Source: Rhodocyclales bacterium
Lineage (GTDB): Bacteria > Pseudomonadota > Gammaproteobacteria > Burkholderiales > Rhodocyclaceae
Reading direction: 5' to 3'
DNA length: 64,000 nt
Assembly: GCA_016235745.1 (NCBI GenBank)
Contig: JACRJA010000017.1
Location: forward strand, 1 to 64,000
The translations under genes were made by a program, and so were the position numbers. Positions 6,090 through 52,494 of the stretch are shown here, piece by piece; position 1 is the first letter of the stretch; each line of letters begins with the position of its first letter. The notes beneath the pieces were generated by a model. The model made no database searches and was not told the DNA's origin. It saw only the letters and a list, made by a program, of their open reading frames with translations.

Positions 6090-6133
6090 GTGGGCCCAGC
6101 TGGATTCGAACCAGCAACCAACGGATTATGAGT
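6090..6133 (-). repeat. Duplicated 3' half of tRNA-Ile(CAT), att-like direct repeat
   Basis: 44 bases are identical to 7123-7166, the discriminator, T-arm and variable region through to the anticodon loop of the intact tRNA-Ile gene, in the same orientation. The 5' half of the tRNA is absent. Tyrosine integrases leave exactly this: the intact tRNA at one end and a copy of its 3' part at the other. The ~990 bases between hold a toxin-antitoxin pair and no integrase. Confidence 0.8.
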
Positions 6134-6209
6134 TCGTCACCAACGCGCGAAGGTGGGCAAGACTAGGCTCTGTACCGCTGGGTACCGGCGAGATCCGCTT
6201 GTCGCCACG

Positions 6210-6518
6210 TCACGGCGTTTGCTGCGCCGCGTGTTTCACTCGCAAAATTTCCACGGTGCGGGTTTCGTCCAGTACGCGATAGAACACGATGTAATTCCGA
6301 TGGGCGACCAGCTCGCGCACAGAGTCCGGCAGGCCGGGCCGCCCGGTGCGGCCAAGCTCCGGGTGCTGTGCAAGGGGCAAGATCTTGGCGCGTAGCTCCT
6401 GGCCGAAGCTGCGCGCCCTGGTCGGGTTGTCTTTGCCGATGTATCGAACGATGCTGCGCAAATCCTCGCGGGCCTTCGGCCGCCATTCGATGCGGTAAGG
6501 GGTCTTTGCCTGCGCCAT
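6210..6518 (-). CDS. parE: RelE/ParE-family toxin
   Basis: 102 residues, the normal size for this family. YRIEWRPKAREDLRSIVRYI is the typical N-terminal strand and helix, and GRPGLPDSVRELVAHRNYI-VFYRV-VEILRV is the conserved core of ParE toxins, most of which poison DNA gyrase. The family has both gyrase- and ribosome-directed members and the target cannot be read from sequence. It follows its antitoxin gene on the same strand, after a tiny 18-codon ORF, and lies inside the tRNA-flanked insertion. Confidence 0.85.
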   Translation of the reverse strand: MAQAKTPYRIEWRPKAREDLRSIVRYIGKDNPTRARSFGQELRAKILPLAQHPELGRTGRPGLPDSVRELVAHRNYIVFYRVLDETRTVEILRVKHAAQQTP

Positions 6519-6521
6519 GGA

Positions 6522-6578
6522 TCAGTCGGCCAGGATGGCCGGCGGGATGCCCTCGGGCTGGTGCGGTTGCTCCTTCAT
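6522..6578 (-). CDS. 18-residue ORF between antitoxin and toxin genes
   Basis: MKEQPHQPEGIPPAILAD. Its ATG overlaps the antitoxin stop as ATGA and it ends 3 bases before the toxin ATG. It could be a translational coupler that carries ribosomes to the toxin start, or simply fortuitous. Confidence 0.3.
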   Translation of the reverse strand: MKEQPHQPEGIPPAILAD

Positions 6579-7042
6579 GCGTGCTTCCTTGCGGCCGGCT
6601 TGCGTTCGGCCATCAGGGCGGTAATGTCGGCATCCATTTCGGCCATGACTTCATCGTGCGAGATGTTCGGCTGGGGGTCGTCGATGGCCTCCTGAATCTC
6701 GCTGGCCAGCCATTCCGCGTAGGCGGCGGCTTGGTGCGCCTTGCGCATCGCCTCGGCCCGGCCACGGTTACCGGCGGTTTCTTCCTTCTCGGCCGGGTTC
6801 CACTCGCTGGCGTCGAACTGGCCGATGGTGATGCCCACGTTGCGCAGGACGTTCAAGGCGGCAAGGGGATTGCCGAACCGGCGCGGTTCGTTGCTGCGGG
6901 CCTTCGCCAGGAAGGCGGAGGACCCGCTGCGCGTGGCGATCTGGACAAGGAACACCCCGCCCTTCCCTTTGAGGGTCACGCTCTCGACGCCGCCGGCATC
7001 GCTCGCGGCACGAAGCTGTTCAAGGGTCATGCTTTGCATCAT
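6575..7042 (-). CDS. Plasmid-type stability protein with StbD/PaaA-like antitoxin tail
   Basis: 155 residues. The N-terminal ~95 residues (MTLEQLRAASDAGG, VTLKGKGGVFLVQIATRSG, EPRRFGNPLAALNVLRNVGI, IGQFDASEWNP) resemble a ParC-like partition-associated protein found on plasmids. The C-terminal part (AYAEWLASEIQEAIDDPQPN, ISHDEVMAEMDADI) matches the StbD/PaaA-type antitoxins that partner ParE toxins. It is therefore most likely the antitoxin of the downstream toxin. AAGGAG precedes two adjacent ATGs; the second (7039) has the better spacing. A perfect inverted repeat overlaps the ribosome binding site, as expected for autoregulation. Confidence 0.7.
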   Translation of the reverse strand: MMQSMTLEQLRAASDAGGVESVTLKGKGGVFLVQIATRSGSSAFLAKARSNEPRRFGNPLAALNVLRNVGITIGQFDASEWNPAEKEETAGNRGRAEAMRKAHQAAAYAEWLASEIQEAIDDPQPNISHDEVMAEMDADITALMAERKPAARKHA

Positions 7043-7060
7043 TCACTCCTTATAGAGTGA
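7043..7060. promoter_or_regulatory. Probable operator of the toxin-antitoxin operon
   Basis: A perfect 6-bp inverted repeat TCACTC-N6-GAGTGA sits directly upstream of the antitoxin start and covers its Shine-Dalgarno. Antitoxins commonly repress their own operons at such sites. Confidence 0.45.
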
Positions 7061-7120
7061 TGAAAGTAGCAGGGTTGATTGTGCATGTTTTCTAGGAAAC
7101 GTGCAAGCGCCATCAGGAGA

Positions 7121-7196
<76 letters not shown>

Positions 7197-13401: not shown

Positions 13402-13545
13402 GGGCGCCGCGAACAGCCGTCGCGAGCGGCTGCAGGGCAAGGCGCCCGGAGCGCAGCCGGCGAGACCTATCATGGAGATAGGCGAGCCTGCGAGCACCGC
13501 GCAACGCCGCCATGCGGCCGCGCAGTAGGTTGTTCGAGGTGCCCT
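13402..13545 (+). repeat. ~145-bp palindromic-ended repeat, copy A
   Basis: It starts GGGCGCCGCGAAC and ends GTTCGAGGTGCCC, imperfect inverted ends. The interior has AGCGGCTGCAGGGCAAGGCG and GAGCACCGCGCAACGCCGCC. It fills the plsY-folB gap. The folB Shine-Dalgarno begins right after its end. Confidence 0.85.
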
Positions 13546-39577: not shown

Positions 39578-40609
39578 ATGCGCATCGCTACTTCGCAGAT
39601 TTTCGACCGCAACATCGCCGCCCTGCAGAACAACCAGGCGCAGCTTGCGCAAACCCAAGCCCAGGTCGCCAGCGGCAAGAAGATGCTCAAGCCCTCGGAC
39701 GACCCGGTGCGCGCCGCGCGCAGCCTCGAGCTGCAGCAATCCCAGAGCGTGAACCAGCAGTTCCTCGCCAACATCGGCTACGCCAAGGACCAGCTCGCGC
39801 TCACCGACACGCGGCTCTCCACGATGACCGACACGCTGCAGTACATGCGGCAGCAGTTCATCAAGGCCGGCAACGGCGGGCTCTCCGCCCAGGACAAGGC
39901 GGCGATCGCTTCCGACCTGCGCAGCCAACTCGACAATCTCGTCGCGCTCGCCAATAGTAAAGACGGGCAGGGGGAATACCTCTTCTCCGGCTACAAGAAC
40001 GACACGGCGCCGATCGCTTTCGGCGATCACGACGGCAACTCCATCACGCCGGAGATCTACTACTACCAGGGCGACGCTGGCACCCGGCAGATGCAGGTCG
40101 GCCCGGAGCGGCGCATGGACGTCTCGGTTCCCGGTTCGGCGAGCGGTGGCGGCGGGCTCTTCGAGGCGGATCAGAGCACGTACGTTCCCGCGGTTCCGCC
40201 GACCGATCCGACCGATCCGACGACCGGAACCCCGGCCCAATATCCCCCGGCCGAGTTTTTCAACCGCCTCAAAATGGCCATCGACGCCATCGATCCGGCC
40301 ACTGCCACAGCGGTCACCTTGCCGGCGGGCTATACCGATCCCACGAGTTACGGCCTCGACACCGTCGACGCCTTCATGGAACGCATCGCCCAGTACCAAT
40401 CCAAGGTCGGTTCCCAGCGCGCCGAGCTCGACTCCCTCGACTTCGCCGGCCAGGCGATCGGCGAGCAGTACGCCGCCGCCCGCTCGCGCATCGAGGATCT
40501 CGACTACAACGAAGCGCTCTCGCGCCTGGCCCAGCAGCAGCTCGTCTTGCAGGCGGCGCAGATGTCCTTCGCGCGGGTGGCCAACCTCTCCCTCTTCCAA
40601 TATCTCTGA
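39578..40609 (+). CDS. flgL: Flagellar hook-associated protein 3 FlgL
   Basis: 343 residues. MRIATSQIFDRNIAALQNNQ, AQVASGKKMLKPSDDPVRAA (flagellin-like D0/D1 motif) and the C-terminal ALSRLAQQQLVLQAAQMSFA-type helix identify FlgL. It caps the hook-filament junction with FlgK. GGGAGA precedes the ATG. Confidence 0.95.
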   Translation: MRIATSQIFDRNIAALQNNQAQLAQTQAQVASGKKMLKPSDDPVRAARSLELQQSQSVNQQFLANIGYAKDQLALTDTRLSTMTDTLQYMRQQFIKAGNGGLSAQDKAAIASDLRSQLDNLVALANSKDGQGEYLFSGYKNDTAPIAFGDHDGNSITPEIYYYQGDAGTRQMQVGPERRMDVSVPGSASGGGGLFEADQSTYVPAVPPTDPTDPTTGTPAQYPPAEFFNRLKMAIDAIDPATATAVTLPAGYTDPTSYGLDTVDAFMERIAQYQSKVGSQRAELDSLDFAGQAIGEQYAAARSRIEDLDYNEALSRLAQQQLVLQAAQMSFARVANLSLFQYL

Positions 40610-40618
40610 GGCCGTTCC

Positions 40619-41170
40619 ATGCGCGCTCTGCCACTTCGTGCCCTTGCCTGTCTTGCCGCGCTCATGGGGGGGTGTGCCGGAGCGCCCTGGAACGACCCCG
40701 AACGCCTGGCCGCGCCGGCGGCGGGCGCCGCAGGCTCGGCGCTCGTGTTCTCGTCCTCGTCGATGAACGTCAACGGCTCGAGCTCGGGCAGCGCCGCCGG
40801 CGGTGCCAATACCGTCACCCCTACGCCCGTGTCGCACGCCGCGCTGCTGCGCCAACTGGGCGGCGCGGCGCTCATCGCCTATGCGCTCTACGACCCGTTC
40901 GATCCCAACTGGCGCATCGAAGTGGAGGAAGCGCCCGCCTACGGCACGGCGCGCATCCGCATGAGCATGCGTACCCTCACCACCGGCGGTCAGGGCGAGG
41001 CCTACACCATCTTTCGCCGCGCGGCCAAGGAGATCGCCTCGCGCCGCGGCGCGGCGAATTTCGAGATCGTCTCGTACGAAGAGGGGATCCACTCCACCCG
41101 GCCGCTCGCGCAGCGCTATGCGGTGGGCGACGTACGGCTCGTCGGGCTGCCCCCTGAAGAGGGGCGCTGA
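40619..41170 (+). CDS. Hypothetical lipoprotein, CC0125/CC1285-like
   Basis: 183 residues. The signal MRALPLRALACLAALMGGC ends at lipidation Cys19. A Ser/Gly/Asn-rich segment (~45-70) leads to a hydrophobic patch (LGGAALIAYALYDPFDPNW) and a mixed alpha/beta C-terminal half (YGTARIRMSMRTLTTGGQGE, YTIFRRAAKEIASRRGAANF, EIVSYEEGI), as in small periplasmic lipoproteins of unknown function. It begins 9 bases after flgL and so could be co-transcribed with flgKL, but a flagellar role is only inferred. Confidence 0.7.
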   Translation: MRALPLRALACLAALMGGCAGAPWNDPERLAAPAAGAAGSALVFSSSSMNVNGSSSGSAAGGANTVTPTPVSHAALLRQLGGAALIAYALYDPFDPNWRIEVEEAPAYGTARIRMSMRTLTTGGQGEAYTIFRRAAKEIASRRGAANFEIVSYEEGIHSTRPLAQRYAVGDVRLVGLPPEEGR

Positions 41171-41198
41171 GGCGCTCGAAGCGCCCGCGACGATGCCT

Positions 41199-41753
41199 TC
41201 ATAGGCGCTCTCGGGGGGAGGAAGGGGCGGGGCGCCGTCCCAGCGTCTTCACCAGCACGCCGTGCCGCGGATGGCGCAGGTGATGGGCGAGCGCGGCGCG
41301 TACCGTCTCGAAGGCGAGCTCGTCCCACGGGATGTGGCGCAGCGGAAAAAGGCGCGTCTCCAGGCTTTCTTCGCCGGGGGCGACGTCTAGGCTGAGCAGA
41401 TTCGCCCGGTAGAAAAGGTGGACCTGTTGGATGGCGGGAACGTCGATGAGCGCCTGCAGCGTGCCGACCTCCACCAGCGCGCCGGCTTCTTCCCAGGTCT
41501 CGCGCATCGCCGCTTCCACCGTGGATTCGCCGTTTTCCATGAAGCCGGCCGGCAGCGTCCACCATCCCAGCCGCGGCTCGATCGCGCGGCGGCACAGCAA
41601 GACCTGGTTCTTCCAGCGCGGGATCGCTCCGACGACGAGTTTCGGGTTTTGATAGTGGATCTCGCCGCAATGAGAACACACGTGCCTTGGCCGGTTGTCA
41701 CCGGCCGGGATGAGGACGTGCAGCGGATGACCGCAGACGGTACAGTAGTTCAT
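41199..41753 (-). CDS. Nudix hydrolase with N-terminal zinc ribbon
   Basis: 184 residues from ATG 41753. A zinc ribbon is formed by CTVCG and CSHCG. The Nudix box is GFMENGESTVEAAMRETWEE-AG, matching Gx5Ex7REUxEExGU. Such proteins hydrolyse nucleoside diphosphates linked to another group (ADP-ribose, NADH, FAD or similar); the substrate cannot be read from the sequence. It converges on the flg operon lipoprotein gene. Confidence 0.9.
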   Translation of the reverse strand: MNYCTVCGHPLHVLIPAGDNRPRHVCSHCGEIHYQNPKLVVGAIPRWKNQVLLCRRAIEPRLGWWTLPAGFMENGESTVEAAMRETWEEAGALVEVGTLQALIDVPAIQQVHLFYRANLLSLDVAPGEESLETRLFPLRHIPWDELAFETVRAALAHHLRHPRHGVLVKTLGRRPAPSSPRERL

Positions 41754-41822
41754 CGCTCGCTCATGAGCGCCTCGATGGCAATGGGCGCTCGTCGAGTATA
41801 CCTTCTTTGCGCTGAGGCAGAG

Positions 41823-41966
41823 GGGCACCGCGCACAACCTACTACGCGGCCGCATGGCGGCGTTGCGCGGTGCTCGCAGGCTCGCCTATTTGCAGGATAT
41901 GTCTCGCCTGCTGCGCTTACGGGCGCCTTGCCCTGCAGCCGCTCGCGACGGTTGTTCGCGGCGCCC
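41823..41966 (-). repeat. ~145-bp palindromic-ended repeat, copy B
   Basis: Inverted relative to copy A. It begins GGGCACCGCGCACAA and ends GTTGTTCGCGGCGCCC. It occupies the gap between the nudix gene and grxD. Confidence 0.85.
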
Positions 41967-42042
41967 AGAGTTTCCATCTTGACGCCGCCCGCTGTGGCTC
42001 GTTAAGATGGCTTTCCCCCAACTGTGCACGGCAAGGACTTCC

Positions 42043-42366
42043 ATGGACATCCAGGAAAAAATCCGTCAGCAGATCGCCGCCGACCCGGTGGTGCTCTATA
42101 TGAAAGGCACGCCCGATTTTCCCTTGTGCGGCTTCTCCGCGGCGGTGGTGCAGGCGCTGCGCCGCTGCGGCCTGAAAGACTTCGCTGCCTACAACGTGCT
42201 CGAAGACGAGGCGCTGCGCCAGGGGATCAAGGAATACGCCAACTGGCCGACGATTCCCCAGCTCTACGTTAAGGGGGAATTCATCGGCGGGGCGGACATC
42301 GTGCGCGAGATGTACGAGTCGGGCGAGCTGCAGGCGCTCTTGAAAGAAGCCGGCGTGCTCGCCTGA
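42043..42366 (+). CDS. grxD: Monothiol glutaredoxin (Grx4 type)
   Basis: 107 residues. The monothiol active site is C29-GFS32 within YMKGTPDFPLCGFSA; WPTIPQLYVKGEFIGGADIV completes the glutathione site. It carries and senses [2Fe-2S] clusters and supplies them to apoproteins. AAGGA precedes the ATG. It is bracketed by repeat copies B and C in the same orientation. Confidence 0.95.
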   Translation: MDIQEKIRQQIAADPVVLYMKGTPDFPLCGFSAAVVQALRRCGLKDFAAYNVLEDEALRQGIKEYANWPTIPQLYVKGEFIGGADIVREMYESGELQALLKEAGVLA

Positions 42367-42372
42367 GCCTTC

Positions 42373-42516
42373 GGGGCGCCGCGAACCACCTACTGCGCGG
42401 CCGCATGGCGGCGTTGCGCGGTGCTCGCAGGCTCGCCTATCTTCATGATATGTCTCGCCTGCTGCGCTCCGGTCGCCTTGCCCTGCAGCCGCTCGCGACG
42501 GTCGTTCGCGGTGCCT
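42373..42516 (-). repeat. ~145-bp palindromic-ended repeat, copy C
   Basis: Same orientation as copy B. It begins GGGGCGCCGCGAAC six bases after the grxD stop and ends GTTCGCGGTGCC five bases before the argH stop, so it fills the entire convergent gap. Confidence 0.85.
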
Positions 42517-42520
42517 TTTT

Positions 42521-43921
42521 TCAGGTGCGCTTCAGCCGCGCCCGGGCCTGCGCGATCGCCTCGCGTACCGCCTCGGGCGCGGTGCCGCCGATGTGCCGCC
42601 GCTGCGCGAGCGAGCCCTCGATCGTCAGCACCCGATACACGTCTTCTTCGATGAGGGGGCTGAAACCGCGCAGCACTTCGAGCGGCAGCTCGGCCAGATC
42701 CACGCCGCGCGCCTCGGCCTCGCGCACGGCGCGCGCCACCGCCTCGTGCGCGTCGCGAAAGGGCACTCCCTTCTTCACCAGATAGTCGGCCAGATCGGTG
42801 GCCGTGGCGAATCCCTGGCGCAACGCTTCGCGCATCGCCTCGGGACGCACGGTGATGCCACCCACCATCTCGGCGTAGATTACGAGCGTGTCGAGCACGG
42901 TATCGACGGCGTCGAAGAGCGGCTCCTTGTCTTCCTGGTTGTCCTTGTTGTAGGCGAGCGGCTGCGCTTTCATGAGGGTGATGAGTCCCATGAGGTGTCC
43001 ATAGACCCGTCCCGTCTTGCCGCGCACGAGTTCTGGCACGTCCGGATTTTTCTTCTGCGGCATGATGGATGAGCCGGTGCAGAAGCGGTCGGCCAGGGTG
43101 ATGAAGCCGAAGCGCGGCGTCATCCACAGGATGAGCTCCTCGGAGAAACGCGACAGGTGCATCATCACAAGGGATGCCGCCGCGAGGAATTCGATGGCAA
43201 AGTCGCGGTCGCTCACCGCGTCGAGCGAGTTGCGGCACACGTCCTCGAAGCCGAGCTCGCGGGCGACGAACTCACGATCGATGGGAAAGGTGGTACCGGC
43301 GAGCGCCGCCGCGCCCAGCGGCAGGCGATTGACGCGCCGGCGCGCGTCGCGCAGCCGCTCGCGGTCGCGCTCGAGCATCTCCACGTAGGCCATGAGGTGG
43401 TGGCCGAAAGTTACCGGCTGCGCCACCTGCAGGTGGGTGAAGCCAGGCATGGGCGTGGCCGCGTGCGCTTCGGCTAGGTCGATGAGCGCGCCTTGCAGTG
43501 CTTCGAGCGCTTCGACGATGGCGTCGATCTGTTCGCGCAGCCACAGGCGCAGGTCGGTGGCAACCTGGTCGTTGCGGCTGCGCCCGGTATGCAGGCGCTT
43601 GCCCGCATCGCCCACCAGGGCTGTGAGGCGCTTCTCGATGTTGAGGTGCACGTCCTCGTCGTCCAGCGACCAGGGAAACTCCCCGCGCGCGATCTCGTCG
43701 CGGATCTGGGCCATGCCGCGCTCGATGTCGGCCAGGTCCTGCGCGCTCAGGATGCCTTGGCGCGCGAGCATTTTTGCGTGGGCGAGCGAGCCGCGGATGT
43801 CGTGCTCGGCAAGCCGCCGGTCGAAGGGAATCGAAGCGGTGTAGCGCTTGACGCGCTCGGAGACGGGTTCGGCGAAGCGTCCCGACCAGGTCTTGGCGGG
43901 CATGTGCGGCGTGTCGGTCAT
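42521..43921 (-). CDS. argH: Argininosuccinate lyase
   Basis: 466 residues from ATG 43921. The fumarase/aspartase family signature is [47 protein letters not shown] and [20 protein letters not shown] are ArgH landmarks. It cleaves argininosuccinate to arginine and fumarate. A TATAAT for this gene (43960-43955 on the minus strand) lies at the very border of repeat copy D, so its -35 region must lie inside the repeat. Confidence 0.97.
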
Positions 43922-43960
43922 GGTGAGGAAGAAGGCTTGGCAATGAAAGAGAGGATTATA

Positions 43961-44103
43961 GGGCACCTCGAACAACCTGCTGCGCGGCCGCATGGCGGCG
44001 TTGCGTGGTGCTCGCAGGCTCGCCTATCTTCACGATAGGTCTCGCCTGCTGCGCTCCGGGCGCCTGGCCCTGTAGCCGCTCGCGACGGTCGTTCGCGGCA
44101 CCC
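43961..44103 (-). repeat. ~145-bp palindromic-ended repeat, copy D
   Basis: Same orientation as copies B and C. It begins GGGCACCTCGAACAA and ends GTTCGCGGCACCC. It separates argH from hemC. Confidence 0.85.
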
Positions 44104-44195
44104 GATAAGGCCGCAGGGCGCCGCGGCGACGATGATAGAATCGCCGCATCCGTTCGTCGTCGGCGCTCGTGCCCGCGCACGCCATGGGAGAATTC

Positions 44196-45155
44196 ATGAC
44201 AGAAGAAATCACCGCCTGCCCGCCTCCGTCGCGTCTGGTCATCGCCACCCGCGAAAGCCGCCTCGCCCTGTGGCAGGCGCAGTTCGTCAAGGCCCGGCTC
44301 GAGGCGCTCTATCCCGGCTGCCGCGTCGAATTCCTGGGCCTGACCACGCGCGGCGACCGCATCCTCGATCGTCCCCTGGCGAAGGTGGGTGGCAAGGGGC
44401 TCTTCGTCAAGGAGCTGGAGGCGGCGCTGCTCGCGGGGGAAGCCGATCTGGCGGTGCATTCGATGAAGGACGTGCCGATGGTGCTCGACGAGGCGTTCGC
44501 GCTCGCCGCCACGCTCGCGCGCGAGGAGCCGGCCGACGCCTTCGTCTCGAACCGCTACGCCAGCCTCGACGATCTGCCGCCGGGGGCGGTGGTGGGCACT
44601 TCCTCGCTGCGGCGTCAGGCGCAACTCATCGCGCAGTACCCTTATCTGGCGGTGAATCCCTTGCGCGGCAATCTCGACACGCGCCTGCGCAAGCTCGACG
44701 AGGGGCAGTTCGACGCCATCATCCTCGCCGCGGCCGGTTTGCGCCGCCTGGAGCTGGGCGAGCGCATCCGGGCGGTGCTGCCGGTCGAGGTCAGCCTGCC
44801 GGCGGCGGGGCAGGGGGCGCTGGGCATCGAGTGCCTGGCCGAACGCGCGGACGTGCGCTCCTGGCTCGCGCCGCTTGCCGATCCCGTCACCACCGCCTGC
44901 GTGGCCGCCGAGCGGGCCTTCGCGCGCGTGCTGGGCGGTAGCTGCGAAGTGCCCATCGCCGCCTATGCCGTGCCCGAGGGTGGGGAACTTTGGTTGCGCG
45001 GCCGGGTGGCCGAGCCCGATGGCAGCCGCATCTACGGCGGCGAGATCCGCGGGCCGCTCCCGGCGGCAGCCCAATTGGGCGAGACCCTGGCGCAGCGCCT
45101 GCTCGATGAAGGGGCGGCGGCGCTCGTCGCGGCGCTCTCGGGCGGCGCGGCATGA
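44196..45155 (+). CDS. hemC: Porphobilinogen deaminase (hydroxymethylbilane synthase)
   Basis: 319 residues from ATG 44196; GGGAG five bases earlier decides this start over an in-frame ATG 27 bases upstream. It polymerises four porphobilinogens in heme synthesis. Substrate-binding HSMKDVP (catalytic Asp92), [11 protein letters not shown] and NLDTRLRKL are present, and Cys250 in [13 protein letters not shown] carries the dipyrromethane cofactor. Its stop overlaps hemD. Confidence 0.97.
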
Positions 45156-45931
45156 AAGCGTCGCCGCCCGCCGTTTGGGTGACGCGGCCGCGCGCGCAGG
45201 CGCAGCGGCTCGAGGCGCTGCTGCGTGAGCAAGGGTTCGTGCCGGTGGCGGCGCCCTTGCTCGCGATCGAACCGATCGAGGACGAAACGAAAGCGGCGCA
45301 GCTCGCCGCCGCGCTGGACGGCTACGCCTGGGTTTTCTTCGTCAACCGCAGCGCCGTCGAACTGGCCGTGCCGCGCCTGCGCCGCCATCGAGACTGGCCG
45401 CCGGGGCCGCCGGTGATGACGGTGGGCGAGGGCAGCGCCGCCTCGTTGCGTGATCTGGGATTCGCAGAGGTCGTCTTTCCCCCTGAAGGGGCGGATTCGG
45501 AGGCGGTGCTCGCGCTGCCGCAGTGTGCGCCCGCCGCCGTCTGCGGCCGTCGGGTGCTGATCGTCAAAGGGGAGGGCGGACGGGCCTTGCTCGCGCAGAC
45601 CCTGACCGAGCGCGGCGCCTGCGTCGACACCTGGGTATGTTATCGTCGCATCCGGCCGCAGTGGTCCGACGAGGTGCTCGCGCCGCTGCGCGAGCGGCGG
45701 CTTGCGGCGATGTTCCTCACGAGCAGCGAGGGGGTCGGGAACCTGCCGGCCTTGGTGCCTCCCGCCGATTGGCCGCGGCTCGTCGACGTGCCGGCCATCG
45801 CCGCGCACCCGCGCATTGCCGCCGCCGCGCTCGCCCTGGGGCTGAAGCAGGTCGTCACCGCGCCGTCCCCGGGCGATGCCGGGCTCGTCGCCGCCCTGGA
45901 ATCCTTGCCCGTTTTGCAGGAGAAGTGCTGA
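45152..45931 (+). CDS. hemD: Uroporphyrinogen-III synthase
   Basis: 259 residues. [20 protein letters not shown] starts the protein, [14 protein letters not shown] and [16 protein letters not shown] continue the weakly conserved HemD pattern, and [17 protein letters not shown] matches the C-terminal SSxxxxN loop. It closes hydroxymethylbilane to uroporphyrinogen III. It overlaps hemC and hemX by a few bases. Confidence 0.92.
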
Positions 45932-47283
45932 TGAACGAACCCAGAGCACAGGAAGAAACCAAGCCTTCGGGGCAGGATCCCCTGGCGGCCGAAACGCCCG
46001 CCGCGGCTGCGGGCGGTGCAACTGCCGGGACCGAAACTCCTTTCCCCTCTCCGCCTGCGGGCGATGCCGCAGCCGCCCAGGCCCAAAGTAGCGCTTCGGC
46101 GGACTCGCCGCCACAGGGGGCTGCCAGCGCAACGCGCGGCGCGCAGGGGGCTTCAACGGCAAGCGCGGTCCCGGCGGCGGCTGCCCGTTCCTCGCGCTCC
46201 GGCCTCTGGGCGCTCGTCGCCGCGATCGCGGCGCTGCTGCTCGCCCTGGGGGCCTACGGCTATGCGCGCTACGTCGCCCAGCAAGAGTCAGAACGGCGCC
46301 AGGTGCTCGAGGAACGGCTCGGCCGGCTCGAACAGGGAGCGCGCCGCAGCGAGGAATCCTTCCAGCAGCTGCAGGGGGCGTTGACCATCTTCTCGCAGCG
46401 CTTGGACAGCGTGCAGCACACGCTCGGGCAGGTCCGTGGGCAGGTGGATGAACTGCGCGAGATCGGCCGGCTGGTAGATCGCCTGACCCAGGCGCTGGCG
46501 CAGCAGGATGAACGGCGCCTGTTCCTGGAAGCGCGCGATGCGCTCACCTATGCGCAACGGCGCATCGACTGGGCGAACGATCCGGCCACAGCGCTCACCG
46601 TGCTTGGCGAGCTCGACGCGCGCCTTGCCAAGGAAAGCCGGGGACTCTTCCTTCCCCTGCGTCAGGCGCTCGCGCGTGACCTGGAGCGGCTACGCGCCGC
46701 ACCCCGGGCCGATCTCGACGGACTCCTCGCCCGGCTCGATGCGCTGGAATCCCGCCTGCCGCAGCTCACCCTCGCCTTCGCCGCCCCCATGCCGGAGACG
46801 GCAGCGGTGACCGCGCCGCAGCTTGCTGCCGAACCTGCGCCGGAAGGCGCTTCATCGCCAGGGGAAGCGCCCTGGTATCGCCGCGCCTGGCAGACGCTGT
46901 TGCGCGGCACGGACGAAGTGCTCGCGTCGGTGGCGCGACTCGTGCGCCTGGAGCGGCTCGATGCCGTGGCGCCGGAGCTGCTCTCGCCGCAGCAGCGCCT
47001 CGTGCTGGAAGAGAACCTGCGGCTGTGGCTTGCCAGCGCCCGGCTCGCGGCGCAGGGCGGAGACGAAGCGCGCTACCGCGCCGCGCTCGGTAAAGTGCGC
47101 GAAACGCTGGTTCGCTTCTATGCAAGCGGCGATCCCGCCGTGGCGTCCACGCTCACCGCCCTCGACGAACTCGCGGCCCAGCCGGTCGCGGCGCATCGCG
47201 TGGCGCTCACCGATTCCTTCGCCGCGCTCGCCCAGATCGAGGCGCGCCTGCAGGCCGAGGCGGCTACCGCCTCCGCGCCTTGA
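45931..47283 (+). CDS. hemX: HemX-like membrane protein
   Basis: 450 residues. A Pro/Ala-rich cytoplasmic N-terminus (1-90), one transmembrane segment (SGLWALVAAIAALLLALGAY), then a coiled-coil periplasmic part (RQVLEERLGRLEQGARRSEE, LGQVRGQVDELREIGRLVDR, LEARDALTYAQRRI) as in proteobacterial HemX, annotated historically as a uroporphyrinogen methyltransferase-like protein but lacking that enzyme's domain. Role is unproven. It overlaps the hemD stop as TGATG. Confidence 0.88.
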   Translation: MNEPRAQEETKPSGQDPLAAETPAAAAGGATAGTETPFPSPPAGDAAAAQAQSSASADSPPQGAASATRGAQGASTASAVPAAAARSSRSGLWALVAAIAALLLALGAYGYARYVAQQESERRQVLEERLGRLEQGARRSEESFQQLQGALTIFSQRLDSVQHTLGQVRGQVDELREIGRLVDRLTQALAQQDERRLFLEARDALTYAQRRIDWANDPATALTVLGELDARLAKESRGLFLPLRQALARDLERLRAAPRADLDGLLARLDALESRLPQLTLAFAAPMPETAAVTAPQLAAEPAPEGASSPGEAPWYRRAWQTLLRGTDEVLASVARLVRLERLDAVAPELLSPQQRLVLEENLRLWLASARLAAQGGDEARYRAALGKVRETLVRFYASGDPAVASTLTALDELAAQPVAAHRVALTDSFAALAQIEARLQAEAATASAP

Positions 47284-47293
47284 GGAGAGCCTC

Positions 47294-48589
47294 ATGAAAG
47301 CCTTGATCACACTCGTGCTCGTGGCTGCGCTGGCGGTGGCGGCAGGGCTCGCCCTCCAGGGCGTGGACGGTTATGTCGTCTTCGTCGTGCCGCCCTGGCG
47401 CGCCCAACTGTCGCTGACGCTCTTCGCGCTGCTCCTCGTGCTTGCCGTCATTGCCCTCTACCTGTTGCTGCGCCTCGGGGTCATGCTGCTCGCCCTGCCT
47501 CGTACCCTGCGCCGGCGGCGCGAAGCGTGGCGCTTGCGCCGGGCCGTGCGCACGCTCGTGCGCCTCGTGCGCGCTCACGTGCTGGGCGATGCGGCAACGG
47601 TCCAACGGCTGGCGCAGCGGCTCGACCGGGATCCCGCCGTCGCCGAGGCCGGCGCGGCGCTCGCGGCAGTCACGGCGCTCGAGCGCAACGACGAGGCGAG
47701 GGCGGAGAATTGGCTCGCCCGTCTCGAGCGCTGGCCCGACGTCTGCACGGTGCTGGAAGCCGAGTTCGGCGTGCGTTTCTCCCGTCCCGAACGCCTGAAA
47801 GCGGCGATGGAGCGTCTGGAACGAATACCCGCTCTTCCCGAAGCCACGGCGCTGCGCCTGCGGCTCGAAGCCGCCAAGAGGGAAGAAAAGTGGCAGGAAG
47901 TGCTCGAATCGGCCCGCCGCTTGCGCGCGCTCGAATCTGTGGGGCGCCGCGAGCAAGCGTCGCGAGCGGCTGCAGGGCAAGGCGCCCGGAGCGCAGCAGG
48001 CGAGACATATCCTGCAGATAGGCGAGCCTGCGAGCACCGCGCAACGCCGCCATGCGGCCGCGCAGTAGGTTGTTCGCGGTGCCCTCTGGATGCGACCGAG
48101 GCCGCCGCCCTCATCCGCCAGGCCCATCTGCACGAGGCCTCCTCACGGCTCGCGCTTGGCGCCGATCTCTTCGCTTGGTGGAAGCGCCTGCCCAAGGAAG
48201 AACGATTCGATCCCGAGTTCCTCCTTGCCTTGGCGCATCTGGCGCTCGATCGGGGGGAAGGCACGAAGGTTCAGCCGATCCTGCAGGCTACCCTGAGCAA
48301 GCGCTGGTTGCCCGAACTGGTGCGTCTCTACCCGCTTTGCGTCGAATCGGGCAGACGGCAAGCGGCGCTCGCCCGGTTGGAAGAATGGCTCCAAGCGCAC
48401 CCGGAGGAAACGGCGGTGCTCGAGGCGCTCGTCGAACTCTGCCTCGAGCTGCAGCTGTGGGGCAAGGCGCAGGACTATCTCGCCCGCTTGCGCCGCCTCG
48501 GCGCGGATCCCAAGGTGCTCGAGCGCTTCGCCGCGCGCTTGCAGTCGGCCGAGGCCGGCCGAGGCGGGGCGATCCTTCCGGCGCCCTGA
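47294..48589 (+). CDS. hemY: HemY-like TPR membrane protein, interrupted in frame by a repeat
   Basis: 431 residues. Two N-terminal transmembrane segments (residues ~2-20, ~40-68) are followed by TPR-like helices (NDEARAENWLARLERWPDVC, KWQEVLESARRLRALES; then DATEAAALIRQAHLHEASSR, LARLEEWLQAHPEETAVLEA, LQLWGKAQDYLARLRRLGAD). HemY-N proteins lie last in hemCDXY operons; their exact role is unclear. Residues 216-264 are encoded by repeat copy E (47941-48085): about 49 extra codons, Arg/Ala/Cys-rich and without family likeness, that leave both sides in frame. Confidence 0.88.
   Translation: MKALITLVLVAALAVAAGLALQGVDGYVVFVVPPWRAQLSLTLFALLLVLAVIALYLLLRLGVMLLALPRTLRRRREAWRLRRAVRTLVRLVRAHVLGDAATVQRLAQRLDRDPAVAEAGAALAAVTALERNDEARAENWLARLERWPDVCTVLEAEFGVRFSRPERLKAAMERLERIPALPEATALRLRLEAAKREEKWQEVLESARRLRALESVGRREQASRAAAGQGARSAAGETYPADRRACEHRATPPCGRAVGCSRCPLDATEAAALIRQAHLHEASSRLALGADLFAWWKRLPKEERFDPEFLLALAHLALDRGEGTKVQPILQATLSKRWLPELVRLYPLCVESGRRQAALARLEEWLQAHPEETAVLEALVELCLELQLWGKAQDYLARLRRLGADPKVLERFAARLQSAEAGRGGAILPAP
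47941..48085 (+). repeat. ~145-bp palindromic-ended repeat, copy E, inside hemY
   Basis: It begins GGGGCGCCGCGAGCAA and ends TTGTTCGCGGTGCCC, orientation as copy A. It is read through without a stop in the hemY frame. A plausible ancestral junction (..CTCGAATCT-CTGGATGCG..) restores a continuous TPR helix region. Confidence 0.85.
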
Positions 48590-48635
48590 GCGCGCACGAA
48601 GCAATCGTCTCGCGTGCGGCGGCAAAAGGCCGTGC

Positions 48636-48641
48636 TACAAT
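48636..48641 (+). promoter_or_regulatory. -10 element of the SRP RNA gene
   Basis: TACAAT lies 9 bases before the predicted RNA 5' end. The -35 is not clear. Confidence 0.4.
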
Positions 48642-48649
48642 GCCGTCCG

Positions 48650-48748
48650 TGGCGGGTCGCCCCGCATTGCGGCGCGGGAACCGGGTCAGGGCCGGAAGGC
48701 AGCAGCCCTAACCGCTCCCCGCAAGTGCCGGGGGTCCGGCTCGCCACC
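48650..48748 (+). ncRNA. ffs: Signal recognition particle RNA (4.5S, small bacterial type)
   Basis: The apical domain GGGTCAGGGCCGGAAGGCAG then CAGCCCTAACC is the Ffh-binding hairpin with its GGAA tetraloop. The ends GTGGCG and CGCCAC (48650-48655 and 48742-48747) pair, giving a long rod of about 98 bases. It binds Ffh and directs membrane protein synthesis to the translocon. It lies between hemY and the convergent ZIP gene. Confidence 0.93.
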
Positions 48749-48753
48749 CCTCA

Positions 48754-49593
48754 TCACATCCATGCCGACAGGCCCAGCACCAGGGCGGAGCCGCTTGCCA
48801 AGGGCAGCATCGCGCGCACCCCCACCCGGCGCAGCCGGGGGGCGAATTCGTGGATCAGCACGAAGCCCATCGCCCCGGCGGCCAGGCCTGCCATCAAGAC
48901 CGCATGTTCGGCAACGGCAAGCCCCAAGCTTTTTGCCAGCAAGGCCACCGCAGGCTCGACCGAGACCGCCGCGAATCCCCAGGCCCCTGCTCTCGCCGCG
49001 GACCAGCCCGCCGCCGTGAGCAACCACATCGCCAGTACACTCTCGGGTACGTTCTGGATGGCGATGCCCAAGGCGAGGGTGGGCCCCATCACTTCGCTCA
49101 TGCTCAACGCCAACCCTTCGGGAACGTTGTGCAGGGCGAGCGCGAACAGAAACAAGAGCGCCGTGCGATCCTGTCCAGCGACCGGCGCGTGGCGGTGCGG
49201 CACGAGCCGGTCGAGCAGCGCCAGTATCCCGGCTCCGGCGCTCAGCGCCAGGGCCCATTGAGCCGCCGCCGGCGCCCACGCCTCGTGCGCCGCGATCTCC
49301 TGCAGTGCGGGCACGATCAAACCGACGATCACGCTCGTGCCCATCACGCCAGCGGCAAAGATCTCGGCCGTGACGGGAGAAGCCGCCACCCACGACGACA
49401 GGGTACGCGCGAGCAGCAGGCCGCCGAGGGCGGCGAGCAGGGAGAGGCACACGAGCAAGCCCCAGGGCGAGATGGCCTGCAGCCGTGCCAAGGATGCGAA
49501 GAGCACCACGGCCGCACCACCGAGCCAGATCGCCCAGCCGATGGCGGCGCGGGACACGAGCGGTGCGGTGCGCGTAAGGACTTTGCTGATCAT
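48754..49593 (-). CDS. ZIP-family divalent metal transporter
   Basis: 279 residues with about eight membrane segments. The ZIP metal-binding signature in segment 4 is ALHNVPEGLALSM, and segment 5 has GIAIQNVPESVLAM. The cytoplasmic His-containing stretch (VPHRHAPVAGQDR) fits the variable loop. It takes up Zn, Fe or Mn. A palindrome resembling a Fur box upstream suggests iron-responsive control, but the metal cannot be read from sequence. Confidence 0.9.
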   Translation of the reverse strand: MISKVLTRTAPLVSRAAIGWAIWLGGAAVVLFASLARLQAISPWGLLVCLSLLAALGGLLLARTLSSWVAASPVTAEIFAAGVMGTSVIVGLIVPALQEIAAHEAWAPAAAQWALALSAGAGILALLDRLVPHRHAPVAGQDRTALLFLFALALHNVPEGLALSMSEVMGPTLALGIAIQNVPESVLAMWLLTAAGWSAARAGAWGFAAVSVEPAVALLAKSLGLAVAEHAVLMAGLAAGAMGFVLIHEFAPRLRRVGVRAMLPLASGSALVLGLSAWM

Positions 49594-49664
49594 GGCGGGC
49601 TCCTTCGAGGTCTATTGCCGTGCGTTCTGGAGTCATGATAGGGAAAACGGCCATTGAACTCAAA

Positions 49665-49690
49665 TGATATTGAGAAATAATCTCAATTAA
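49665..49690. promoter_or_regulatory. Fur-box-like palindrome upstream of the ZIP gene
   Basis: TTGAGAAATAATCTCAA (49670-49686) is an inverted repeat TTGAGA-N5-TCTCAA in an AT-rich patch, similar to the beta-proteobacterial Fur site TGAGAAT-N-ATTCTCA. It lies between ZIP and dnaX. Confidence 0.5.
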
Positions 49691-49748
49691 AAATTCCCAT
49701 CCCGGCGCACTTCGTGGTCGCGGCGCAAGAATCCGGTAGAATTCACTC

Positions 49749-51572
49749 ATGACCCAGCTCGCCCTCGCCCGCAAATGGCGTCCCCGCCGCTTCGACGCGC
49801 TCGTGGGGCAAGACCACGTCGTGCGCGCGCTCACGCATGCGCTCGCCACGCAGCGGCTGCACCACGCCTATCTCTTCACCGGCACGCGCGGGGTGGGCAA
49901 GACCACCATCAGCCGCATCTTTGCCAAGGCGCTCAACTGCGAGCGCGGCGTCACGTCCGAGCCCTGCGGGGTCTGTGCCGCCTGTCTGGCCATCGACGCC
50001 GACCGGTTTCCCGACTACGTCGAGATGGACGCCGCCTCCAACCGCGGCGTCGACGACATGGCGGCGCTGCTCGAGCAGGCCGTCTATGCCCCCGTGCAAG
50101 GGCGCTTCAAGGTCTACATGATCGACGAAGTGCACATGCTCACCGGGCACGCCTTCAACGCCATGCTGAAGACCCTCGAAGAGCCGCCCGAGCACGTCAA
50201 GTTCATCCTGGCCACCACCGATCCGCAGAAGATCCCCGTCACGGTGCTGTCGCGCTGCCTGCAGTTCAACCTCCGCTCACTGCCGCCGGCGCTCATCGCC
50301 GAGCACGCTGCCCGTATCCTGGAAGCCGAGGCCGTGCCCTACGAGCGCGGCGCGCTCGAACTCGTGGGGCAAGCCGCGCGCGGTTCCGTGCGTGACGCCC
50401 TCTCGCTCCTCGATCAGGCGCTCGCTTACGGGGCGGGGGAGGTGCGCGAGGCGCAGGTGGCCGAGATGCTGGGCCTGGTGGCGAGCGCCACCTTGCGCGA
50501 ACTCTTCGAGGCCGTGGTGGCGGCCGATGCGCCGGCCGCGCTCGCGCTCGCCGACCGGCTGGCCATGAGCGGTGCCTCGCTCGAATCGGCCCTGGCGGCG
50601 CTCGCCCAGCTCGTGCATCAGCTCGCCGTGCTGCAGTTCGCCCCCGAGGCCGTGGAGCCGCAGACGCATGAGGCGCTCGCCCCGCTTTCCGCCCGGCTCG
50701 ATCCGGAATACCTTCAGCTCGCCTACGACATCCTCACGCACGCGCGCCGCGACCTGCCGCTTGCGCCCGATCCAGCCGTCGGCTTCTCGATGGCGATCTT
50801 ACGATTGCTCGCCTTCGCGCCCCAGGCCACGGCCGCGCCGCCGCCCGCGGTGCCTGGCCCGAGCGCGGCGCCCAGAAGTGATGAGAGCGCAGAAGCAGCC
50901 GAAACGAGCCGCAGCGAGCCGCCTTCCGGACGAACGCACGCACCGTCGACCGCGGCCGGCGAAGCGCGGCACGCCGCGTCTTCGCCGCCGCGCCAGGAGC
51001 AGGGTAGGGCGCTTGGCCCGGCACCGCCCGAGGTCGCCGGGGTTTCTCCGGCGCAGGAAGACGGCATGCCGGTGCAATCTCCTTCCCCCGAGCCGTCCGG
51101 CGCGGCGGAGCCGGGCGTGTCCCTGCGGGAAGACTGGAAAGGCCCTGGCAGCCGAGTCGATGCCTGGCACGAGTGGTTCGCCGCCATGTCCCTCATGGGG
51201 CTTGCGCGCGAGTTCGCGCAGCATTGCCTCTGCCGCGCGGTTGAAAACGACACGGTCGAGCTCCTGCTCGATGCCTCGCACCGCGTGCTGCTCGATCTGC
51301 ATCCAGAATGCGTCGAGCGCATCGCCGAGGCGCTCAGCGAGGTCTTGGGGCGGCGCGTGAACGTGCGCGTCACCCTGGCCGAAGTCGCCGATACGCCGGC
51401 GCAGCGCGAGGCCGAGGCCCGTCGCCAGGCCCATGCTGCCGCCGTCTCCCGTCTGCTCACTCATCCCGTCACCCAGCGGCTCATCGAACGGTTCGACGCC
51501 ACGCTCGACGAAACCAGCGTCACGTGGTCCACCCCCTCACCCCCTTCTGGAGAAACACGCCATGTTCAATAA
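49749..51572 (+). CDS. dnaX: DNA polymerase III subunit tau (clamp loader)
   Basis: 607 residues. Walker [10 protein letters not shown] (45-53), zinc Cys64, Cys73, Cys76, Cys79 (CGVCAACL), Walker [11 protein letters not shown] and sensor 1 region [19 protein letters not shown] form the AAA+ domain. The Pro/Ala-rich tail (~350-450) and C-terminal tau domain follow. I saw no AAAAAAG slippage site, so a separate gamma made by frameshift is not indicated. It overlaps ybaB by 11 bases. Confidence 0.96.
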
Positions 51573-51888
51573 GAATGCCCTCTCCGGCCTGATGCGCCAG
51601 GCGCAGCAGATGCAGGAAAACATGAAGAAAGTACAAGACGAGCTCGCCGCGCTCGAAATCGAAGGGCAAGCCGGCGCCGGACTCGTCAAAGTCCTCATGA
51701 CCTGCAAGTACGACGTGCGCCGCGTCAGCATCGACCCCTCGGTGCTCGACGACAAGGAGATGCTCGAGGATCTGATGGCCGCCGCGGTCAATGACGCCGT
51801 GCGCCGGGTCGAAGCGACCACCCAGGAGAAGATGGCCGCCGTCACCGCCGGCATGCCGCTGCCTCCGGGCATGAAACTGCCTTTCTGA
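51562..51888 (+). CDS. ybaB: Nucleoid-associated protein YbaB/EbfC
   Basis: 108 residues. [40 protein letters not shown] and LPPGMKLPF at the C-terminus are the family landmarks. It forms a DNA-binding dimer. Its ATG lies inside the end of dnaX, and recR begins 6 bases after it: the usual dnaX-ybaB-recR operon. Confidence 0.95.
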
Positions 51889-51894
51889 GAGCCC

Positions 51895-52494
51895 ATGCCC
51901 ACGCCGCTCGACGAGCTCATCGAGGCGCTGCGCTGCCTGCCGGGCGTCGGCGTGAAGAGCGCGCAGCGCATGGCGCACCACCTGCTGCAGCGCGAACGGC
52001 GCGGGGCGCAGCGGCTGGCCCGGGCGATCGAAGCGGCGCTCTCCACCCTCACGCACTGCGAGCGCTGCAATGCCTTCAGTCAGACCGCCGTGTGCGCCCG
52101 CTGCAGCGACCCGGCGCGCGATGCCGCGCTCGTGTGCGTGGTCGAATCGCCCGCCGACATGGAAGCGATCGAGCAGACCCATACCTACCGCGGTCTCTAC
52201 TATGTGCTCATGGGGCACTTGTCGCCGCTCGACGGCATCGGTCCCAAAGAGCTCGAACTGGAACGCCTGCTCGCGCGGCTCGCTGCGCCCGAAGTACGCG
52301 AAGTGGTGCTCGCCACCAACTTCACCAACGAGGGCGAAGCCACGGCGCACTGGATCGCCGAACGGGTGCGTCCGCGCGGGGTGACGGTCACGCGCCTGGC
52401 GCGCGGCGTGCCGCTCGGCGGTGAGCTCGAATACGTCGACGCCGCCACCGTGGCGCACGCCCTCATCGATCGCCGCCGTCTCGACGTGAGCTGA
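51895..52494 (+). CDS. recR: Recombination protein RecR
   Basis: 199 residues. HhH motif [17 protein letters not shown], zinc finger [16 protein letters not shown] and Toprim [20 protein letters not shown] complete the RecR plan. With RecO it loads RecA at single-strand gaps. C-terminal [20 protein letters not shown] is the conserved Walker-B-like tail. Confidence 0.97.

Follow-up and report, generated by a model that had tools for sequence, protein, structure and literature searches.

An in-frame miniature inverted-repeat element adds 49 codons to hemY in a Rhodocyclales bacterium

The window, by which we mean the whole stretch of 64,000 nucleotides analysed here, carries hemY downstream of hemC (identified with Pfam) and of open reading frames that we take to be hemD and hemX, with a small SRP RNA gene nearby at 48651-48748. 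The hemY product matches the NCBIfam profile of the HemY family (TIGR00540) with 163.5 bits against a cut-off of 142. Pfam HemY_N covers its residues 26-128, and TPR_19 is found at residues 351-407 with 24.4 bits, slightly below the cut-off of 25. A copy of a short repeat lies inside hemY, and the window holds five copies in all, the hemY copy included. The features are listed below, with the boundaries of the copies taken from a 40-copy alignment.

47294-48589, + strand: hemY, 431 aa, with an in-frame insertion; frame intact over 431 codons
47938-47941, + strand: left target-site duplication TGTG, flanking the element; the site is empty in T. succinatimandens hemY
47942-48084, + strand: miniature inverted-repeat element (copy E), 143 bp, read in + strand frame 0
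47942-47959, + strand: left terminal inverted repeat of the hemY copy, from the consensus fold
48067-48084, - strand: right terminal inverted repeat of the hemY copy, GGGCACCGCGAACAACCT
48085-48088, + strand: right target-site duplication TCTG, identical to the left TGTG at 3 of 4 positions
13402-13544, + strand: element copy
41823-41966, - strand: element copy, 144 bp
42374-42516, - strand: element copy immediately downstream of argH
43961-44103, - strand: element copy between argH and hemC

Three of these copies fall within 2.3 kb (41823-44103), two of them flanking argH. Elsewhere in the window, 47 bp at 6090-6136 repeat part of a tRNA-Met gene (7121-7196, - strand), about 1 kb away, with 98% identity. 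The interval encodes a toxin of the ParE type (6210-6518) and a protein whose end resembles the antitoxin PaaA2 (6575-7042), an arrangement that would fit integration of a small toxin-antitoxin cassette next to the tRNA (6090-7196).

The net gain in hemY is 147 bp (47942-48088), that is 143 bp of element plus 4 bp, or 49 codons (residues 216-264), and it is in frame because 143 + 4 is divisible by three and one frame of the element is open. In Tepidiphilus succinatimandens, T. olei, T. margaritifer and the MAG STCSWMC_214, hemY encodes 380-382 aa and lacks the 49 residues; the matches of these congeners cover residues 1-216 (1-212 in one) and start again from 260, 264 or 265. The four were named through hemY sequences identical to those of named genomes. 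The host is treated here as a Tepidiphilus sp., a genus for which NCBI also lists T. thermophilus and T. baoligensis. In the DNA, the T. succinatimandens site reads CGAATCCATGGACGC, and the window reads CGAATCTGTG, the element and then TCTGGATGC. The insertion in hemY is thus confirmed as real and precise. The initial annotation, made from the sequence alone, had described a repeat copy in the hemY coding sequence, translated without a stop into an Arg/Ala/Cys-rich insert at residues 216-264, and both points hold, with 11 Ala, 9 Arg and 4 Cys among the 49 residues. The span it gave, 47941-48085, is at the right location and one base too wide on each side of the element. The flanks do join once 147 bases are removed, and line up with hemY of the relatives. 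It had proposed a search for an empty site in related hemY genes, which all four congeners have, and none of the four carries the segment as a conserved domain, the observation that it had named as contrary to its view.

A genome search with the hemY copy returned, besides the query itself, at least 39 matches (E 5e-65 to 5e-40; 40 of 110 candidates scored), far more than chance would give. With up to three mismatches, a pattern for the left end matched 42 times in the genome, compared with 0 for a reversed-pattern control, and a core pattern matched 41 times, so that the genome contains about 41-42 copies. All 40 BLAST matches were kept in the alignment, in which unlike flanks meet the copies at sharp boundaries. 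The length is exactly 143 bp in 30 of the 40 copies (129-146 bp in the remainder), and length plus 4 is divisible by three in 33. Half of the copies (20/40) have an exact 4-bp duplication, where 2000 shuffles of the right flanks give 0.96 on average and never more than 6; the flanks of the others agree at three of four positions in 10 copies (hemY among them), at two in 8 and at one in 2. Folding the consensus gives a single long hairpin (-85.2 kcal/mol, z -6.25 on the + strand; -81.4, z -4.94 on the other), and 16 of the first 17 bases of the consensus pair with the opposite end, forming terminal inverted repeats. The repeat is short, multi-copy and without a transposase gene, and has terminal inverted repeats, target duplications and empty hemY sites in congeners, this last property being seen, among the genome's own copies, at the single site in hemY. 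It is a transposed miniature inverted-repeat element (MITE).

The right end of the hemY copy agrees at 15 of 17 bases with an IS5-type end, GGGCACCTCGAAAAACC, and the consensus element at 16 of 17. The same GGGCACCTCGAAAAACC forms the left end of sequences whose IS5-type transposase, encoded in two reading frames, matches Pfam DUF772 and DDE_Tnp_1; the best NCBIfam match, IS5_4, is below cut-off. Longer IS5-type copies are present in T. margaritifer and T. succinatimandens, and this genome has remnants. In the window's genome, which is 94% complete in 73 contigs, we found no intact IS5-type transposase gene or autonomous IS. Inspected by eye, the six IS copies for which both ends can be seen, orthologues among them, show no target duplication; for these two reasons mobilisation in trans is something that we infer. 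The 143-bp non-autonomous MITE was probably moved in trans by an IS5-type transposase recognising its terminal inverted repeats, and its ends suggest the transposase described here. It would have entered hemY of this Tepidiphilus lineage after the split from T. succinatimandens, duplicating 4 bp of target.

That the insertion damaged hemY, which would now be becoming a pseudogene, might be expected from 49 foreign residues in a TPR protein, but the frame is intact across all 431 codons. By the Nei-Gojobori method, dN/dS between the window and T. succinatimandens hemY is 0.219 before the insert and 0.155 after it; for T. succinatimandens and T. olei, both with empty sites, it is 0.234 in the N-terminal and 0.183 in the C-terminal part. 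When changes are polarised by T. olei and T. margaritifer, the window branch has 19 synonymous and 12 nonsynonymous changes compared with 20 and 11 on the sister branch (T. succinatimandens), in tests that span time preceding the insertion and that a recent loss of function could escape. At the sequence level hemY thus appears to show no sign of decay and no excess of amino-acid changes. Perhaps too little time has passed for decay to appear; overall, we consider a damaged hemY quite unlikely.

In the AlphaFold model of the empty HemY the site is a loop between helices 200-212 and 218-239, and the insert is therefore predicted to sit between two helices, in agreement with the initial annotation. 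In the model with the insert, the first helix continues to residue 234, residues 229-264 have pLDDT below 50 and ten-residue blocks of 271-420 average 88-96; both models were built on 5 sequences and are of middling quality (pTM 0.53 and 0.50). Four Cys and nine Arg in 49 residues, in a gene that is not decaying, could be taken to mean that the insert has been domesticated and gives HemY a new property. We regard this as quite unlikely: the peptide is near the frame-0 translation of the element consensus, it is predicted to be disordered, and none of the four congeners has it. Since the insert would lie in a loop, the HemY protein would have tolerated the 49 extra codons; the modified HemY is presumably made and working, and the insert presumably neutral.

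Transposition of a MITE into hemY, with a tolerated in-frame gain of 49 codons, is as a whole very probably the correct explanation. Its insertion, duplication, empty sites and open frame, and the lack of an excess of amino-acid changes, are shown as far as sequence comparison can show them. Besides the failure to find an intact transposase gene in this genome or target duplications of the IS, the imperfect duplication at hemY (3/4) and the ten of 40 copies whose flanks match at no more than two of four positions count against it. It is a case in which a small mobile element has made a conserved protein longer without breaking the frame, and four relatives have the empty orthologue.

How often the element lies in genes bears on a further alternative. 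We scanned 40 ORFs for domains, hemY and 39 others. The 39 run through copies outside the window and extend at least 25 codons beyond the element in each direction; of the 35 own copies there, 25 have such ORFs and ten have none. Only hemY has domains on both sides, a count that includes TPR_19, just below its cut-off; among the 39 others no family was found on both sides of the element, and two have a domain downstream only (peptidase M48 and the antiporter MnhG). A 3-periodic coding score over 150-base flanks, the sole measure for the four further window copies, was computed for all 40 copies, and hemY alone is clearly coding, with one open frame on both sides; the copy at 43961-44103 has the same open frame on both flanks with a left score of only 0.4. 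Given that 31 ORFs of at least 250 codons, counted as genes without further check, cover 46,953 of the 64,000 window bases, one shown genic copy in 40 suggests a strong loss of genic insertions. Many in-gene copies were accordingly rejected as a candidate, as was selection for open element frames, since three of the six frames of the consensus are open and shuffles average 2.83. Frame +0 is open in 26 of the 30 full own copies. In other genera, seven ORFs (141-598 aa) that run through or are joined to copies matched no Pfam family, and the same was true of one further ORF without a real copy.

A second in-frame case was detected in T. margaritifer. There, a copy with ends GGAAACGCTGAAGAA (L162:1712-1854, G004:C2) lies inside the Radical_SAM_N domain (Pfam) of a 742-codon reading frame, presumably ygiQ. 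It belongs to a sister subfamily with ends different from those of the hemY copy, and its flanks are CCAG/CCAA. Matches to ygiQ in the four remaining Tepidiphilus genomes stop at residues 265-267 and resume at 313-316; the net difference is not exactly 49 codons because the site is a variable linker. The hemY and ygiQ inserts are read on the same element strand and in the same frame, with the related core QGARSAA-ETY--DRR--EHRAT. This is a mild coincidence, because frame +0 is open in 26 of 30 own copies and in five of eight copies from the sister subfamily (L163, among the eight, is cut a base off). Among eight congener ORFs, chosen for long open frames and so no random sample, ygiQ is the true case, two TilS ORFs have domains after the element only and five have none. 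In L163 (T. olei) and L165 (T. margaritifer) a copy lies just before a tilS-type gene or in frame with its start, possibly an orthologous insertion supplying a new N-terminus. With hemY and a second independent case in the genus, direct testing by comparison of natural alleles becomes possible.

The shared strand, frame and core of the two inserts, together with a net 147 bp that preserves the frame, would also fit a coding repeat of the Rickettsia type, which spreads through genes with its peptide tolerated and its frame kept open by selection. This is very unlikely here: the consensus has about as many open frames as its shuffles, both the domain scan and the coding scores single out hemY alone, and, with long ORFs covering so much of the window, random insertion and later loss of harmful copies predict the same picture. 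As for an ancestral hemY domain lost in relatives, no supporting evidence was found, and the idea is refuted by the roughly 40 further occurrences of the same sequence in the genome, many of them flanked by a target duplication of their own, and by the empty sites of all four congeners, so that it can be set aside with near certainty.

The MITE found in hemY has relatives well beyond the genus. In other genera the core is kept and the length mostly so, 27 of 32 loci measuring 139-149 bp, often with other ends; these figures are indicative only, as the 32 loci include some elements fetched twice and the end-finding script rewarded matching flanks and mildly favoured about 145 bp. The count of 4-bp duplications in the 40 own copies is free of that bias. 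Within the order, a covariance model built from 17 copies, with rough E-values, detected the element in 53 of 150 genomes, representing 40 of 92 genera. In the phylum, Pseudomonadota, it did so in 61 of 299 genomes, some outside the window's class, and the carriers belong to many families. Both tallies include the window's own genome, and copy numbers from these searches are lower bounds because no more than 21 candidates per genome were scored in the order and 10 in the phylum. Plasmid records gave a single match, on a Nitrosomonas plasmid, found in both the protein and the DNA search. One genome of the order has head-to-tail runs of copies (G102:C5:33718-34422 and 139755-140254), mostly spaced at 120-150 bp.

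Among 23 aligned copies, standard pairs fill 93.9% of the pair cells, 34 of 40 pairs vary on both sides and covariation scores 0.693 compared with 0.199 in shuffles, the pair counts leaning towards the model to which the alignment was fitted. The inner helices 4, 5 and 6, in which 11/12, 6/8 and 4/4 pairs change on both sides, are more telling because the outer helix would covary in any MITE. Between end types, cores are 70% and ends 42% identical; within types the values are 81% and 72%, the agreement of the ends being partly due to how the types were made. The core-only tree used 44 rows (of 83 rows, 13 were dropped as identical or longer than 155 nt, and 26 of the remaining 70 lie outside the four hand-made end types) and requires five changes of end type, compared with a minimum of three and a shuffled mean of 22.7. 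One group of this tree is mixed (support 97), joining two B-end rows with thirteen A-end rows, and one locus in another genome (G023) has copies of two end types. Frequent swapping of ends was rejected on the tree count, and the ends mostly travel with the core lineage.

Half of one element variant (L065:1493-1567, - strand) scores 44.7 bits with the Rfam family sX9 (RF02228; cut-off 44), a Xanthomonas sRNA. It is the only one of seven loci scanned to pass (L050 reaches 24.4). Two other own copies gave no match even with E values up to 1, and window positions 40000-52000, which contain the hemY copy, gave none at the cut-off; six genomes gave none, though the controls were likewise silent. In an excerpt of a Herbaspirillum survey, sX9 is listed in two strains (PMC6337395). 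By this similarity, sX9 may be part of a mobile repeat.

Tentatively, these elements could be seen as one apparently undescribed hairpin family of about 143 bp, present in at least two classes of the phylum, in which core and length are conserved and the ends have diversified to match different IS5-type transposases, sometimes with two kinds of ends within one genome. The core would be a passenger that occasionally changes its vehicle, half of one branch would have been catalogued as sX9, and the hemY and ygiQ cases would be by-products of the fixed length; we hold this to be possible and no firmer than that. The family is the part that may be new, and we found no description of the element in the open-licence literature (CC0, CC BY or CC BY-SA). 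It raises the question of what conserves a non-coding core when the ends, the parts that a transposase would recognise, change.

Rickettsia palindromic elements, reportedly described by Ogata in 2000 and 2002, are the parallel drawn by the initial annotation. In one set of these elements, 11 of 12 lie in frame in genes, according to a review that treats them (PMC10969869). The parallel is apt for the in-frame insertion, a repeat of about 150 bp lengthening a protein (hemY, and ygiQ in T. margaritifer), and fails for the frequent genic location with a frame kept open: here genic copies are rare (1/40 shown), open frames are at the level of shuffles, and there are target duplications and IS5-like ends. 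The further idea that such repeats create new protein segments gains some support from ygiQ, while the hemY segment shows no sign of function. As the same review describes them, bacterial MITEs are under 200 bp, have terminal inverted repeats, target duplications, dozens of copies and no transposase gene, and have ends like those of IS of the genus, all of which the hemY element shares; their likeness to an IS extends over much of it or is confined to the ends (PMC10969869). The present family differs in having, besides its ends, a conserved and covarying hairpin core across many genera. In-frame fusion has been documented for intragenic ERIC sequences (PMC10969869, in part) and, by Delihas 2007 (PMC2759123), for the enterobacterial RU-1, RU-2 and RU-3, which are MITE-like, 103-168 bp long, intergenic and also fused in frame within annotated genes; these have other hosts and are likened here by description, not by sequence. 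Intragenic GTAG/CGTC REP repeats, for example in Thauera, are short palindromes that encode inserted peptides; as summarised in portions of PMC3733652, REPs are 20-40 bp long and RAYT enzymes are believed to move the GTAG type, in contrast to 143 bp and IS5-like ends here. Among these systems, the hemY insertion is a clean further example of a documented phenomenon, the in-frame fusion of a short repeat with a gene.
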